61,450 bases of DNA. It comes from Massiliimicrobium timonense. GTDB lineage: Bacteria > Bacillota_I > Bacilli_A > Erysipelotrichales > Coprobacillaceae. Below, one piece after another: positions 53,391-61,450 of the stretch. The stretch covers positions 1-61,450 of the forward strand of contig NZ_NFLJ01000013.1 in the NCBI RefSeq assembly GCF_002160865.1. The letters run 5' to 3'. Numbering within the stretch: position 1 is the stretch's first letter; each line of letters begins with the position of its first letter. The notes under the pieces are model-generated. The model made no database searches. It was not told the origin of the DNA and saw only the letters and a program-made list of their open reading frames with translations. Made by a program: the position numbers and the translations under genes.

Positions 53391-54377
53391 ATGATGGTTT
53401 TGAAAAAAAGATGGTTTATTATCACTTTTATTGTTGTTTCTATTCTTTTAAGTGCTGGATATGGAGTAGGGAGTTATTTTGTAAATTATGCATTATCGCC
53501 AAGTAGTTCTTCTGATCAAAGAGAAATAGATGAAAGTGATGAAGTTCAACTCAGTGATTCTGTTCAAAAACAGATTGATCAAAATCAAGAAAAAGAAATG
53601 GTGAAAGGGATTGATTTTGAAAGTCAAACGAAACCTATGATTGTGAGTAGTGATGATTCACTAAATTTAAAAGGTAAATATTTAGATCATGAAAATACAC
53701 ACCAATGGGTCATTTTGATTCATGGTTATAAATCAAGTAATGAAAATATGATGTCTTATGGGGCAACTTATTATGAACATGGATATAATGTTGTCTTACC
53801 AGATAATCGTGCTCATGGGAAAAGTGATGGAGAATATATTGGTATGGGTTGGCTAGATAAAGATGATATCGCCTGTTGGGTTAACTGGATTATTGAAAAA
53901 GATAATCAAGCTCAAATTATTTTACATGGTGTTTCAATGGGTGGAGCAACAGTGATGATGGCTTCAGGAGATCATTTACCACATGTGGTTGGATATATTG
54001 AAGATTGTGGTTATACAAGTGTGTGGGATATTTTTGCTAGTGAACTGGATAAGCGTTTTTCTTTACCAACATTTCCAGTATTAGATATTTCCAATTTTAT
54101 GGCACAAATAAGAGCAGGATATGATTTTAAAGAGGCTTCGAGTTTAGAACAGGTTAAAAAAGCGAATGCACCAATGTTATTTATTCATGGGGGTAAAGAT
54201 GATTTTGTGCCTGTAGATATGGTTTATGAAGTCTATGATGCTTGTCCTACGACGAAAGAGCTTTATATTGTAAAAGAAGCTGGTCATGCTCAAGCAAAAG
54301 ACTATGATGTTGAAGACTATTGGAATAAAGTGTTTGATTTTATTGATCAAAACATTTGGAAAGATGGAACATTATGA
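53391..54377 (+). CDS. Membrane-anchored alpha/beta hydrolase, paralogue of 4223-5149
   Basis: A serine hydrolase of about 328 residues with an N-terminal signal anchor (WFIITFIVVSILLSAGYGVG) and an acidic linker (about 45-75). The core has LIHGYKSSNENM, LPDNRAHGKSDGEYIG, nucleophile elbow HGVSMGGATVMM, GGKDDFVP and EAGHAQAKD. Start choice is uncertain: AAAGG abuts ATG 53391, while TTG 53400 has an 8-base spacing; the paralogue has the same layout. The acetyltransferase gene overlaps its end by four bases. Substrate unknown. Confidence 0.85.
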   Translation: MMVLKKRWFIITFIVVSILLSAGYGVGSYFVNYALSPSSSSDQREIDESDEVQLSDSVQKQIDQNQEKEMVKGIDFESQTKPMIVSSDDSLNLKGKYLDHENTHQWVILIHGYKSSNENMMSYGATYYEHGYNVVLPDNRAHGKSDGEYIGMGWLDKDDIACWVNWIIEKDNQAQIILHGVSMGGATVMMASGDHLPHVVGYIEDCGYTSVWDIFASELDKRFSLPTFPVLDISNFMAQIRAGYDFKEASSLEQVKKANAPMLFIHGGKDDFVPVDMVYEVYDACPTTKELYIVKEAGHAQAKDYDVEDYWNKVFDFIDQNIWKDGTL

Positions 54378-55180
54378 GTGAAGCAAGTGTTATTCAAAAG
54401 AGTATAAGACCACAAACTAAAGATACTTTGAAAGAAGATTTTCAAAAGATAGGAATACAAAAAGGAGATATTGTTTTAGTGCATTCGTCCATGTCACAAA
54501 TAGGATGGATTGCTGGACGAGAAATAGCTGTGATTGAAGCATTAATTGAAACAGTGGGAGAAGAAGGAACAATTGTTATGCCAAGCTTTAGTGGAGAAAA
54601 CAGTCAGCCAGAATTGTGGCAAAATCCTCCTGTTCCAGCCGATTGGATATCTGTGATTAAAGATTATATGCCTCCTTTTGAATGTGATAAAACACCAACA
54701 AGAGAAATGGGAAAGATTGCGGAAGCCTTTTGGCATTATCCTCAAGTTTTGCGTTCCTATCATCCAGAAGTATCATTTAGTGCTAGAGGAAAAATGGCAA
54801 ACATGATTGTTGAAAAACATCCATTATCACCAGGATTTGGCAAAGATTCACCTTTACAAAGATTATATGACTTGAATGCACATGTTTTACTATTAGGAGT
54901 CAGCTATGAGCATTGTACTTGTATGCATTTAGCTGAAGTTTGGCAAGAGTGTCCTCAATGGTATACCAATGGGGCAGCCATCATTGAAAATGGCAAACGT
55001 GTGTGGAAAGAGTTTTTAGAGATTGCTTATGATGATAGTGATTTTTTGGATATAGGTCAGGCTTATGAAAGCCAATATCATATCGAAGCTGGAACTGTGG
55101 GTTTAGCAAAAACGAGGTATTTAGAAATAAAACCTCTTTGTGATTTTGCATATGAATGGATCAAAGTAAATAGACTATAA
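54374..55180 (+). CDS. AAC(3)-family N-acetyltransferase homologue
   Basis: A 268-residue protein of the aminoglycoside 3-N-acetyltransferase (Antibiotic_NAT) fold, using acetyl-CoA. KGDIVLVHSSMSQIGWIAG, VMPSFSGENSQPELW, MGKIAEAFWHYPQVLRSYHP and CTCMHLAEVW match conserved blocks, the last with the catalytic His. Chromosomal homologues also act on other amines or in antibiotic biosynthesis, so resistance should not be assumed. ATG 54374 overlaps the hydrolase stop; the longer in-frame TTG start is unlikely. Confidence 0.88.
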   Translation: MSEASVIQKSIRPQTKDTLKEDFQKIGIQKGDIVLVHSSMSQIGWIAGREIAVIEALIETVGEEGTIVMPSFSGENSQPELWQNPPVPADWISVIKDYMPPFECDKTPTREMGKIAEAFWHYPQVLRSYHPEVSFSARGKMANMIVEKHPLSPGFGKDSPLQRLYDLNAHVLLLGVSYEHCTCMHLAEVWQECPQWYTNGAAIIENGKRVWKEFLEIAYDDSDFLDIGQAYESQYHIEAGTVGLAKTRYLEIKPLCDFAYEWIKVNRL

Positions 55181-56016: not shown

Positions 56017-57043
56017 GATTTTCACCTTGATGAATATAGGCAAGAACTAAGCGATACGTATTTTCTACAGCTTGGATATGTGTTCTTTCCATACCATGTG
56101 AAGCATGAACGCCCGGTCCTATTAAAGCACCTTTGATGTTTTGTCCACCTCTTAAAGCAGCAGAAACATCACTACTATAGAATGGATAAATATCAACTGC
56201 ATATTGTAAATTCTCTCTTTTTGCAAGTTCTATAAATGTAGATGTGATTTCATAGTCATAAGGACCACTGGAATCTTTCGCACAAATACTGACATCATAT
56301 TCACTACAAGCTAAATCTTCTCCAATACATCCCATATCTACCGCAATCAATTCATCAACATTTGAATCAACATAGCTACTACCATGCCCCACTTCTTCAA
56401 ATGTAGAAATCATAAAGTAAAGATTATGTTGAGGTTGAATATGATTTTGTGATAAATATTTCAAAACACCAAAAAGTATCGCAACACTCATTTTATCATC
56501 TAAAAATCTTGACTTAATAAATCCTGAATCAGTGAATGTTGTTTTAGGTTCAATCGCAATATAATCACCATTATCAATACCAAGCTTTTTTACATCTTCT
56601 TTTGTTTTAACGACTTCATCAAGACGAATATGCATTGTATCACATGATCTTTCTTTGTCTTTAGAATCTTTATAAACATGAGCAGCAGGTGAATTGGAAA
56701 GAATTGTTCCTGTATAAACATCATGATTTCTTGTCATAATACGACAATATTCACCATCTAATGTTGGAATAATAGGACCACCAACATTCGTAAAAGCTAA
56801 AGTTCCATCATCTTTAATACTTCTGACCATTAATCCTAGTGTATCAACATGAGCACAGAACCCAATTGTATAATCATCTTGTCCATCTACGAATATTTGT
56901 AGATTACCTTTTTTAGTCAGTTTTGTTTCAAATCCTAAATTTTGTGCTTCTTTTTGACAATATTCAATGACTTCTTTAGTATAACCAGAAGGACTGTCAA
57001 TCGCCATAATATCTTTTAAAATAGAAAGTATGTATTCATTCAT
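56009..57043 (-). CDS. M42-family glutamyl aminopeptidase/endoglucanase-type metallopeptidase
   Basis: A 344-residue dinuclear metallo-aminopeptidase that forms large tetrahedral assemblies in this family. Metal ligands and catalysts are readable: FCAHVDTLG (His, Asp), SRFLDDKMSV (bridging Asp), STFEEVGHGSS (Glu-Glu), AVDMGCIGED (Asp) and GVHASHGMERTH (His). It is the middle gene of Rrf2-M42-HAD, overlapping both neighbours by 4 and 8 bases. Confidence 0.92.
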   Translation of the reverse strand: MNEYILSILKDIMAIDSPSGYTKEVIEYCQKEAQNLGFETKLTKKGNLQIFVDGQDDYTIGFCAHVDTLGLMVRSIKDDGTLAFTNVGGPIIPTLDGEYCRIMTRNHDVYTGTILSNSPAAHVYKDSKDKERSCDTMHIRLDEVVKTKEDVKKLGIDNGDYIAIEPKTTFTDSGFIKSRFLDDKMSVAILFGVLKYLSQNHIQPQHNLYFMISTFEEVGHGSSYVDSNVDELIAVDMGCIGEDLACSEYDVSICAKDSSGPYDYEITSTFIELAKRENLQYAVDIYPFYSSDVSAALRGGQNIKGALIGPGVHASHGMERTHIQAVENTYRLVLAYIHQGENHE

Positions 57044-57477
57044 AAATTTTCTCCTCCTTGATGGGCTGCATTTATAATTTGTGATAAAGTGATTTCATTT
57101 AATTTTTGTTTATATTGATATTCAGCAGCATTTAAATAATCAACAATAAAATCTTCTGTTTCCTTAACCTTTAAATGAGAATCAAAAACCTTATCAACCA
57201 AATGTGTTGTTTTCACAAAAGGTTCTTTTCCTTCCATAGCTTCAAAAATATCCAATAAAGAAATATTTTCAAGCGATTTTGTTAAAACAAAACCACCACG
57301 CTTATTAGCCATAGATTGAATCAAACCAGAAACAACAAGTTGTCTGGTGATTTTTTTGAGATAAGAATCTGATACCAATAGTTTTTCACTCAGTTCATGA
57401 CTTTTAATGGGTTTATCATTAGCACCTATTAAAAGTAATATACAAATAGCTTGTTCAAAACTCTTTCTAATCTTCAT
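57040..57477 (-). CDS. Rrf2-family transcriptional regulator
   Basis: A 145-residue winged-helix regulator: FEQAICILLLIGA, then SHELSEKLLVSDSYLKKITR and GFVLTKSLENISLLDIFEAM, the family signature. The Cys triad that holds Fe-S clusters in IscR and NsrR, normally around residues 90-110, is absent (that region is FVKTTHLVDKVFDSHLKVK), so it probably does not sense Fe-S or NO directly. ATG 57477 is 8 bases from GGAAGG; closer ATG and GTG codons are too near. It is divergent from the YhgE gene, a probable target. Confidence 0.9.
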   Translation of the reverse strand: MKIRKSFEQAICILLLIGANDKPIKSHELSEKLLVSDSYLKKITRQLVVSGLIQSMANKRGGFVLTKSLENISLLDIFEAMEGKEPFVKTTHLVDKVFDSHLKVKETEDFIVDYLNAAEYQYKQKLNEITLSQIINAAHQGGENL

Positions 57478-57533
57478 TTTCATCACCTTCCTTTCTATTT
57501 TAACAGAAAATCAATTCTTTGTATCTAAAAGAG

Positions 57534-57561
57534 TTGACAATTATAAGGAAATTTATATAAT
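57534..57561 (+). promoter_or_regulatory. Promoter of the yhgE-like gene
   Basis: TTGACA (57534-57539) and TATAAT (57556-57561) with a 16-bp spacer, followed after one base by the leader palindrome. Confidence 0.78.
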
Positions 57562-57562
57562 A

Positions 57563-57606
57563 ATCTTTAGATATTTTATATCTATGGATATTAAATATCT
57601 AAAGAT
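57563..57606 (+). promoter_or_regulatory. 44-bp near-perfect palindrome in the yhgE leader
   Basis: Arms 57563-57582 and 57587-57606 pair at 19 of 20 positions (only 57577/57592 mismatch) around TATG. It lies immediately after the -10 box and 20 bases before the start codon, with no T run, so it is not a terminator. It could be the operator of the divergent Rrf2 protein or an mRNA hairpin close to the ribosome site. Confidence 0.8.
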
Positions 57607-57626
57607 AATAAGAAAGAAGGGGTTTT

Positions 57627-60062
57627 ATGCTTAAACAGGAGTGGAAGAATATTTTTCATCATACTTGGATGAAGGTCGTTCTTGTAGCGATTATTTTGAT
57701 ACCAAGTTTATATGCTTGTATTTTTTTAGGATCTATGTGGGATCCTTATGGAAATACAGGAAAGATTCCCGTAGCTGTGGTGAATCTTGATTTATCAGTT
57801 AAGTATGGGAATCGTACTTTAGATGTAGGGAAAGAATTGGCAGATCGACTCAAAGACAATACAAGTATGGATTTTCAATGCGTGGATAAAGATAAAGCAC
57901 AGAAAGGATTAAAAGATGGTCAATATTATATGATCATTACTATTCCTGAAGATTTTTCAAAAAATGCAACAACGCTTCTAGATGAACAACCACAAAAAAT
58001 GAAACTTCATTATGCAACGAATCCAGGAAGTAACTATATTGCTTCTAAAATGGATGATTCAGCAATCGAAAAAATCAAATCAGAAGTTTCACAAACTGTG
58101 ACAAAAACATATGCTCAAACAATTTTTGAACAAATTACAACGTTAACAGATGGTTTAAAACAAGCCAATAATGGGGCACATCAATTATCTGATGGAAGTC
58201 AAGCATTGGTAGATGGAAACCAGTTGATTTCAGATAATCTTCAAGTTTTAGCAGACAGTACACTTTCATTTGAAAACGGAGCACAAACACTGACAAAAGG
58301 ATTAAAAGATTATACGGAAGGTGTTTTAACAGTGCATAATGGTGTCTATACTTTAAAAGATGGATTGGACACATTGTATCAATCAACACAACCACTTCAT
58401 GATGGAGTGGAGGCATTATCTCAGGGGTCTTCAGTATTAAACACAGGACTACAACAATATACAAAAGGTGTTTCAAGTGTTTATCAAGGAACACAACAAC
58501 TTATGAAAAATCAAGAACCAATAACTCAAGGAATGCAAAGTTTGGATCAAGGAACTGATAAACTTATAGAAGGCAATCAACAGGTTTATCAAGGATTGAA
58601 TCAACTCAATCAACAGTTATCTTCAATCAATACGGAACAAATACAAACAATCACACAGGCTAATGATTCTTTAAATCAAGCAACAATATTGTTGAATCAA
58701 TTGATGTCTTCCAATCCATCAATGGCTCAAAAATGGATGAACCAAAAGTTAAGTGATGCAGAAGCCAAGAATATCGCTTTGAATCAACAAGATGTACAGT
58801 ATCTTTTAACACATTATTCGTATATAGAATTAGAAAAAAGTGTAATCACAGGGAATCAAGAAGCTATCCGTCAATTCAGTACAAGTTTAACACAAGTGTA
58901 TAAAAATACACAAAAACTAGAAAAAGGAAGCCAACAACTCCAAAGTGGTTTAGAAGACTTGAATACATCAGTGAGAACATCATTAATACCGGGTATTGAA
59001 GCTTATATGAAAGGTGTTAGTCAGATTCATGATGGCTTAGGAAAATTAGAACATCAAAATCAAACATTATTGCAGGGAAGTCAACAATTAACAGATGGAT
59101 TATTATCGTTTAAACAACAGACACCAGCTCTTTTCGGTGGAATAGAACAATTAAATCAAGGAGTAAAAGCATTATATGATGGTACAACCACATTAATATC
59201 TCAAAATGAAACAATCATGCAAGGATCAACACAATTAACTCAAGGTTCAACACAGATTAAAGCAGGTGCAAAACAACTGAGTGATGGTTCATTAACATTA
59301 AGTGATGGTTTACAGACACTTCAAAATGGGACTCAAAAATTAGATGAAAGTTTGAAGGAAGGAGTAGAAAAGGCTAATTTTCATATTCAAGATTCAACGT
59401 TGGATATGATGTCCGCACCAGTAGAAACAAGTCATGAAGCGATTTCCACAGTCACAAACAATGGTCATGCGATGGCACCTTATATGATGAGCGTGGCTTT
59501 ATATGTTGCTGCTTTAGCTTTTACACTTATGTATCCAATAAGAAAAGGTATAAAAAAAGCTTCATCACCATTCAAGTATTGGCTATCAAAAGCCTCTGTG
59601 ATGTATAGTGTATCAACATTATCAGCTATCATTTTAATCACAAGTTTAAGATGGATATGTGGCTTTGAACCTCAACAATTATTGATGACTTATCTCTTTG
59701 CGATTATTGTTTCAGCTGCTTTTATGTCACTTGTGATGTTGTTGTCACTGACAACAGGTTATATAGGAGAATTTTTATTGTTAGTCTTTATGATTTTAAA
59801 TTTAGGTGGATCAGCAGGAACTTATCCATTAGAAACATCAAATCTATTTTATCAATGGCTACATCCATTTGTCCCTTATACTTATAGTGTCAATGGATTT
59901 AGAAAAGTCATTAGTATGACAGAAATGCCCATTACAAATGAAATCATCATCTTTTTAGGAATTCTTATGATTTGTTCACTTCTTACAATTCTTTATTATC
60001 GTTTTAAAAATAAAGAAGATAAACATCTTATTCCACAGGCATTTGAAAAAGTTAATGAATAA
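57627..60062 (+). CDS. YhgE/Pip-family membrane protein
   Basis: An 811-residue protein with one N-terminal helix (VVLVAIILIPSLYACIFLG), a long extracellular region, and about five C-terminal helices from residue 625 on, as in YhgE and phage infection protein. The N-terminal WDPYGNTGKIPVAVVNLDL is the family hallmark. The extracellular region of about 450 residues is a helical stalk built from repeats with G-x(2-3)-L spacing (LSDGSQALVDGNQLISDN, LSDGSLTLSDGLQTLQNG). Homologues are phage receptors or export-related proteins; the role here is unknown. GAAGGGG precedes ATG 57627. Confidence 0.9.
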   Translation: MLKQEWKNIFHHTWMKVVLVAIILIPSLYACIFLGSMWDPYGNTGKIPVAVVNLDLSVKYGNRTLDVGKELADRLKDNTSMDFQCVDKDKAQKGLKDGQYYMIITIPEDFSKNATTLLDEQPQKMKLHYATNPGSNYIASKMDDSAIEKIKSEVSQTVTKTYAQTIFEQITTLTDGLKQANNGAHQLSDGSQALVDGNQLISDNLQVLADSTLSFENGAQTLTKGLKDYTEGVLTVHNGVYTLKDGLDTLYQSTQPLHDGVEALSQGSSVLNTGLQQYTKGVSSVYQGTQQLMKNQEPITQGMQSLDQGTDKLIEGNQQVYQGLNQLNQQLSSINTEQIQTITQANDSLNQATILLNQLMSSNPSMAQKWMNQKLSDAEAKNIALNQQDVQYLLTHYSYIELEKSVITGNQEAIRQFSTSLTQVYKNTQKLEKGSQQLQSGLEDLNTSVRTSLIPGIEAYMKGVSQIHDGLGKLEHQNQTLLQGSQQLTDGLLSFKQQTPALFGGIEQLNQGVKALYDGTTTLISQNETIMQGSTQLTQGSTQIKAGAKQLSDGSLTLSDGLQTLQNGTQKLDESLKEGVEKANFHIQDSTLDMMSAPVETSHEAISTVTNNGHAMAPYMMSVALYVAALAFTLMYPIRKGIKKASSPFKYWLSKASVMYSVSTLSAIILITSLRWICGFEPQQLLMTYLFAIIVSAAFMSLVMLLSLTTGYIGEFLLLVFMILNLGGSAGTYPLETSNLFYQWLHPFVPYTYSVNGFRKVISMTEMPITNEIIIFLGILMICSLLTILYYRFKNKEDKHLIPQAFEKVNE

Positions 60063-60112
60063 ATATGTATATTTCTTCATTCTTTGACCATGATATGAAT
60101 ATGGAGGTTAAG

Positions 60113-60559
60113 ATGATGAAAAAAATATTAGCATTACTTTTATGTATGACTGTATTTACTGGTTGTAGTAGTCAGACAGATACATCGGATGATACAGCCA
60201 ATAACAATCGTTCAACAGATAATGTGACAGAAAATGAAAATAACAATAACACACCAACTAACAAAACAGATGATTGGTATGCTCAATTTGAAAATGGCTT
60301 GAAAGAAGGAAACATTGATTATTCTTCTAAAAATGTCTTAGATGCAACAAATGTTGGTGGTGTAGAAGGTTATCGTTATGTAACGGATAATGGAAATATT
60401 GACGTTTATCGTTATGAAGATGGTGATGAGTTTGAACGTATCATGGATGAAAAAACAATTGGTGATGATAAAAAGAAAGTAGAAGTCAATGACCATATGG
60501 TGATTGTATCTGATGGGTTATCAGAAGATGTATTGGATATATTTAGAAATTTAAAATAA
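60113..60559 (+). CDS. Small lipoprotein, unknown function
   Basis: A secreted protein of about 148 residues. The signal peptide ILALLLCMTVFTGCSS ends in a lipobox (FTGC), so the mature N-terminal Cys would be lipidated. A low-complexity Asn/Thr/Asp linker (about 22-55) leads to a compact domain with YRYVTDNGNIDVYRYEDG and DHMVIVSDGLS. GGAGG at 60103-60107 supports ATG 60113 or 60116. It is 50 bases behind the YhgE gene and may be co-transcribed with it. Confidence 0.82.
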   Translation: MMKKILALLLCMTVFTGCSSQTDTSDDTANNNRSTDNVTENENNNNTPTNKTDDWYAQFENGLKEGNIDYSSKNVLDATNVGGVEGYRYVTDNGNIDVYRYEDGDEFERIMDEKTIGDDKKKVEVNDHMVIVSDGLSEDVLDIFRNLK

Positions 60560-60639: not shown

Positions 60640-61450
60640 ATGAAGCGTATCACAACAGGAACAGAAAATTTTAAAGAATTCATTGATAAGATTTATTATT
60701 ATGTTGATAAGACAATGCTTATAGATGATGTCTTAAGCGATAAGGTCATGTTGTATACAAGCCCTAGACATTTTGGAAAGACATTAAACATGAGTATGCT
60801 TTATTATTTCTTTTCTAATAAGGAAAAAGAAAATGCTTATCTTTTTGAGGGTTTGAATGTATCAAAACATCAATATCTCATGCTTCATCAAAATTAATAT
60901 CCTGTCATTTTTCTATCTTTGAAAGATATGAATGCAATACTTTTCAATCTCAGATTTATATTTTTGCCAATATCATTGCAAATATTGTTGATAAATATAG
61001 TGATATACAAAATAGTGATATAAACATCAATATTAATGAATTACATATGTCTTTAAAAGATATTTCATCTATTCTATTTAACTATTATCATCAAAAAGTC
61101 ATCATTCTCATAGACGAATATGATGTGCCTTTACAGAGTGCCTATCATCATGGTTACTATGATGAAATGGTTGATTTTATAAGAAGCGTCTTTTCATCTG
61201 CATTAAAAACTAACGATGCACTGGAAAGAGGAGTATTGACTGGCTGTCTTAGAATATCTAAAGAAAGCATCTTTACAGGTCTTAATAACTTTACAGTGAG
61301 AACCATTATGGATGTAGAGGCATCTGATTGTTTTGGATTTACCCAAGAAGAAATTGATGAACTTTTGAAATACTATAATCTTATGGATAATCGTCAAGAG
61401 ATGAAGGAATGGTATGATGGCTATCTGTTTGGAAAGACGGAAATCTATAA
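60640..61450 (+). pseudogene. AAA-ATPase-like/DUF1703 protein gene, disrupted, cut by window edge
   Basis: The N-terminus matches AAA-ATPase_like proteins that carry a C-terminal PD-(D/E)XK-like domain: KIYYYVDKTMLIDDVL, then SPRHFGKTLNMSMLYYFF with the P-loop variant. An in-frame TAA at 60895-60897 interrupts the frame, the same frame continues YPVIFLSLKDMNA, and a shift near 60931-60945 moves the coding signal to another frame (IANIVDKYSDIQ; VIILIDEYDVPLQSAYHHGY with Walker B; KEWYDGYLFG). Both defects would have to be repaired for function, so it is a pseudogene unless the sequence has errors. Confidence 0.85.

Follow-up and report, generated by a model that had tools for sequence, protein, structure and literature searches.

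A 44-bp near-perfect palindrome lies between an Rrf2-family regulator gene and a divergent yhgE/pip gene in a 61,450-nucleotide stretch of Massiliimicrobium timonense DNA (hereafter the window). We consider that the palindrome is very probably a double DNA operator at which the divergently encoded Rrf2 protein would repress yhgE by steric block. Four features are supported by sequence comparison: the site is built of tandem dyads, it lies over the transcription start, it co-occurs with rrf2 and it is unique in the genome. We further infer binding by Rrf2 itself, an effect by repression, occupancy by two dimers and the existence of a signal. In the proposed mechanism, each 17-bp dyad would take one Rrf2 dimer, and the end-to-end dyads would reach from about +1 to about +34 relative to the yhgE transcription start. 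With both dimers in place, RNA polymerase would be unable to bind the promoter or to leave it, until a signal freed the dimers and allowed the expression of yhgE.

The palindrome and its flanking genes

An inverted-repeat search placed the palindrome at 57563–57606 (unstranded), with 20-nt arms at 57563–57582 and 57587–57606 that pair at 19 of 20 positions around TATG (57583–57586). Allowing one extra mismatch extends it to 57560–57609, with 23-nt arms that are 91% paired. It is the sole inverted repeat in the 61-kb window with 20-nt arms, at most one mismatch and a gap of 0–12. No comparable repeat is found among 60 simulated first-order Markov windows, and the chance estimate for the intergenic region, in which the local base composition was used, is about 2e-5.

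The yhgE promoter, TTGACA-16-TATAAT (57534–57561, + strand), agrees with the consensus at all 12 positions and is conserved in relatives; its boxes are TTGACA at 57534–57539 and TATAAT at 57556–57561, separated by a 16-nt spacer. The ribosome site agaagggg, read from the sequence at about 57615–57622 (+ strand), falls outside the palindrome, and the ATG start codon of yhgE is at 57627. Much of the description in an earlier note on this DNA is upheld by these coordinates: the 44-bp near-perfect palindrome with 19 of 20 positions paired around TATG, and its location between the promoter and the ribosome site. The note had given it as 57534–57626, which is the tract from the promoter to the ribosome site; the palindrome proper is 57563–57606. 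Its phrase "directly after the −10 box" holds for the outermost arm bases, with a gap of 1 nt, and becomes 6 nt when only the conserved dyads are counted. The note had also judged termination unlikely, and rightly, as a search for terminator-like sites gave none. An intrinsic terminator with a GC-rich stem and a T run is ruled out by the lack of any such site after the promoter. A known cis-regulatory RNA is likewise ruled out, with no Rfam match at the palindrome at the gathering score. Elsewhere in the window Rfam gives a single match, a T-box leader (RF00230, 26996–27194, + strand, 124.9 bits).

The central 34 bp of the palindrome consist of two abutting 17-bp dyads, TAGATAT-TTT-ATATCTA followed by TGGATAT-TAA-ATATCTA, with the consensus TRGATAY-N3-RTATCYA. 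Dyad 1 (TAGATATTTTATATCTA, 57568–57584, unstranded), the proposed site of the first Rrf2 dimer, is an exact match to TRGATAYNNNRTATCYA and begins at the expected yhgE transcription start. Dyad 2 (TGGATATTAAATATCTA, 57585–57601, unstranded), the proposed site of the second dimer, is also an exact match, and both are kept in relatives. Because any palindrome in tandem copy is itself palindromic, the 44-bp length needs no special mechanism. The 5-bp flanks outside the tandem dyads are symmetric too, here and in several relatives, which is beyond what the tandem-dyad model alone explains.

The gap between the dyads is 0, 3 or 13 bp depending on the lineage. Most loci have dyad centres 17 bp apart; the distance is 20 bp in L055, L065 and L094, and L050 has 30 bp. 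In both L050 and L065 each dyad is perfect (14/14). Since the spacing varies while the dyads persist, the 17-bp dyad is the unit. Where the spacing is 17 bp, the dyad junction (57582–57587 in the window) reads CTATGG, CCATAG or CCATGG, with CCACGG and CCCTAG found once each. CTATAG never occurs among the aligned tandem-dyad sequences with this spacing, which hints that GGATA is needed in one or both inner half-sites.

The proposed repressor gene rrf2 (57040–57486, − strand) encodes a protein that matches PF02082, the Rrf2 winged-helix domain (E 6.2e-23, residues 7–139), which makes its fold clear, and passes TIGR00738 with 74.1 bits against a cut-off of 73.3, in agreement with the divergent Rrf2 gene described in the note. 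Homologues begin with MKIRKS, which makes the ATG at 57477 its more likely start. No further Rrf2 relative is found in the window's genome at E ≤ 1e-3. The protein has a single cysteine in its whole length and lacks the three-Cys Fe-S cluster of IscR and NsrR. It misses the equivalog cut-offs of the Fe-S members of the family (IscR, 39 against 207.55 bits; NsrR, 22.2 against 182; RirA, 35.5 against 193), scores far below the cut-off of CymR, and reaches 32.3 bits against 180 for the HypR model. The single cysteine, in helix 1 (EQAxC), is kept in the homologues read, a count biased by an extraction step that itself demanded this cysteine for 29 of them; it is also kept in L009 and, as read by eye from the DNA, in L038, L050 and L137.

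The proposed regulated gene yhgE/pip (57627–60062, + strand) encodes an 811-aa membrane protein. Its assignment to YhgE/Pip in the note is confirmed by TIGR03061 (212.5 bits, cut-off 96.15) and TIGR03062 (205.8 bits, cut-off 102.2), and it carries the heptad repeat TIGR03057. Some YhgE/Pip proteins are phage receptors. Directly 3′ of yhgE lies a lipoprotein-like ORF without a Pfam match (60065–60559, + strand), possibly in the same operon. An AAA-ATPase_like protein at the end of the window seems to be split into two ORFs (60640–60897 and 61047–61448, + strand) by a possible frameshift or stop. On the other side of the locus, 54356–55180 (+ strand) encodes a predicted protein with an Antibiotic_NAT (aminoglycoside 3-N-acetyltransferase) Pfam domain.

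Conservation of the tandem dyads and association with rrf2

Homologues were collected from 40 related genomes and from a one-genome-per-species scan, with Massilimicrobiota and Erysipelatoclostridium as the nearest named records. The note had named lack of conservation in close relatives as a result that would refute its proposal, and on comparison the palindrome is conserved. Where rrf2 adjoins yhgE, 27 of 28 loci carry a tandem dyad scoring at least 22/28 and the remaining one scores 21; no dyad pair reaches 22/28 in any of the 47 YhgE loci without rrf2. The nominal Fisher p for this association is 1.5e-19; the loci are related, so it overstates their independence, and a subset of the counted loci had supplied the dyad consensus. 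Shuffles of four upstream regions score 18–19 on average and 22 at most. L137, a more distant rrf2–yhgE locus, was left out because its sequence ends before the rrf2 promoter.

In the Coprobacillaceae relatives rrf2 is divergent from yhgE, and all divergent loci have the tandem dyad just past the −10 box. The operator, as scored in these loci, begins 0–13 nt past that box; in Trichococcus it overlaps the apparent −10. The order rrf2→yhgE is found in Trichococcus, Aerococcus, Sedimentibacter, a Streptococcaceae MAG, Konateibacter, Galacturonibacter and a Ruminococcus MAG, a range that includes Lachnospiraceae. In these operons the dyads precede rrf2, and none stands before yhgE in 12 of 12 (best score there, 19).

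A strict tandem pattern is present in 15 of 43 family genomes, as a single site in 14 and as two sites in G002, and all matches examined lie between rrf2 and yhgE; the reversed pattern gives no site in the same 43 genomes. Within the window's genome these two dyads are the only exact 17-bp matches. With at most one mismatch allowed there are 17, against 10 for the reversed-pattern control. A wider regulon is disfavoured by the lack of any other exact dyad, and six near-matches that were checked have neither rrf2 nor yhgE nearby. The metagenome-derived genome G002 carries two rrf2–yhgE loci on contigs C98 and C1, with 98% and 73% identity to the protein of the window, and may be a mixed bin.

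Because the operator misses the likely rrf2 start, autoregulation is not accounted for in the divergent layout. A lone half-site-like element, GTATCTA (57521–57527, + strand), stands before the −35 box and upstream of rrf2. On comparison with relatives it is found in 8 of the 21 divergent loci listed, the window included, is altered in L033, L038 and L039 and is absent in others; that it gives a weak contact for rrf2 autoregulation is speculative. A third dyad-like site, GTGATATTTTATATCTA, is seen on the rrf2 side of L043, 220 nt short of where the sequence read ends, with a seemingly weaker counterpart in L109. The L043 site possibly serves autoregulation.

Alternatives to an Rrf2 operator

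The comparison gives an association with rrf2 rather than contact, and the palindrome might instead be the operator of another host DNA-binding protein. We regard this as very unlikely. The motif is confined to loci with an adjacent rrf2 across several families and two gene orders, the scattered sites of a regulon are absent from the genome, and YhgE loci without rrf2 lack the motif. Among the latter, L012 and L049 have other inverted repeats upstream of yhgE, and in L012 a TetR-like protein adjoins the gene, which suggests that the regulator was swapped in these loci.

The note had offered an Rrf2 operator of unusual length or, alternatively, an mRNA hairpin that controls ribosome access. The first option gains strong comparative support, and the length resolves into two 17-bp dyads whose spacing varies elsewhere. 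A 5′-leader hairpin governing ribosome access to yhgE does find some backing in folding: the window leader folds better than its shuffles (−11.9 kcal/mol, z −2.2), and the leader of L050 still folds (−20.9, z −3.9) despite 13 bp between its dyads. Several lineages have lost the hairpin, however: the Trichococcus leader L097 is no better than shuffles (z 0.04), and the Trichococcus element alone reaches −2.8 to −5.7 kcal/mol. In the folded window leader the ribosome site is outside the long stem. The element lies at varying distances from the ATG (L007 and L009 differ from the others) but keeps its place over −10/+1, and in the rrf2-first operons it follows the operon promoter, before rrf2, and not the ribosome site of yhgE. 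Ribosome gating by the hairpin, as the note proposed it, appears very unlikely on these grounds. A related possibility is that the hairpin chiefly shields the 5′ end of yhgE mRNA from decay, besides or instead of acting as an operator. The predicted transcript would begin with it, and many Coprobacillaceae have a stable stem there, but Trichococcus keeps the dyads without the stem, and we hold this role to be extremely unlikely.

The note had suggested comparing compensatory changes in related strains. The arms do co-vary within Coprobacillaceae, but symmetric DNA recognition predicts arm co-variation too. In a set of 28 different 34-mers, most positions of the GATA/TATC core do not vary. Positions 4/29 are paired in 28 of 28 sequences against 19.8 expected, and positions 7/26 in 24 against 13.5 expected. 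Full pairing of the spacer triplets between the arms is possible in just 4 of the 28, which counts against the hairpin; their pairing is above permutation (3 of 2000 reach the observed value), in a permutation that ignores relatedness. A single event in one clade may lie behind the AGACAT/ATGTCT change. In Coprobacillaceae the symmetry exceeds that of two tandem dyads, in that the outer arms and flanks are matched as well and certain arm positions co-vary; the complex may thus be a symmetric one of four subunits, or the hairpin may play a minor part.

Relation to known regulators and significance

HypR of S. aureus, SifR of S. pneumoniae and SaiR of B. subtilis resemble the Rrf2 protein of the window in lacking an Fe-S Cys cluster and, on the reading proposed here, in having a near-palindromic operator at target promoters (PMC9218516). 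Their operators share a 19-bp core, TGTAA-N9-TTACA, with one dyad per site (PMC9218516), whereas the proposed operator has the 17-bp TRGATAY-N3-RTATCYA, doubled in every locus; neither dyad of the window matches the HypR/SifR-type core. SifR has several targets (PMC9218516), whereas the sequence described here has a single location in the window's genome. The closest mechanistic parallel that we found, by analogy, is QacR of S. aureus, a regulator of the TetR family that binds as a pair of dimers to IR1, a long inverted repeat overlapping the promoter of the membrane-protein gene qacA (PMC3022030). The regulator family differs, and two-dimer binding in the present case is deduced from the two complete dyads. 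The target protein, with both YhgE/Pip domains and heptad repeats, is similar to lactococcal Pip and the EsaA-like group. No Firmicute EssC over the cut-off is found in the window's genome, and a link to type VII secretion was rejected on this ground.

A literature search found Rrf2 and YhgE together in a single paper, on butanol tolerance, and did not find Rrf2 with "phage infection protein". Judged from sequence, the palindrome is most likely an ordinary kind of switch, with a recognition sequence that we did not find described and an unusual doubled, spacing-variable layout. More tentatively, and at slightly less than an even chance, the proteins might form an undescribed Rrf2 subgroup (EQAxC, no Fe-S cluster) in Firmicutes, in which a doubled-dyad operator with 17, 20 or 30 bp between centres makes a single-target YhgE/Pip switch, with possible cysteine sensing of a membrane-active or redox signal.

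The operator model would account for the conspicuous palindrome with no need of a novel RNA switch and would tie the control of YhgE/Pip to a dedicated proposed repressor. It also gives an uncharacterised Rrf2 group a testable recognition sequence and target, and the varied dyad spacing is a natural series on how two dimers would cooperate on DNA.
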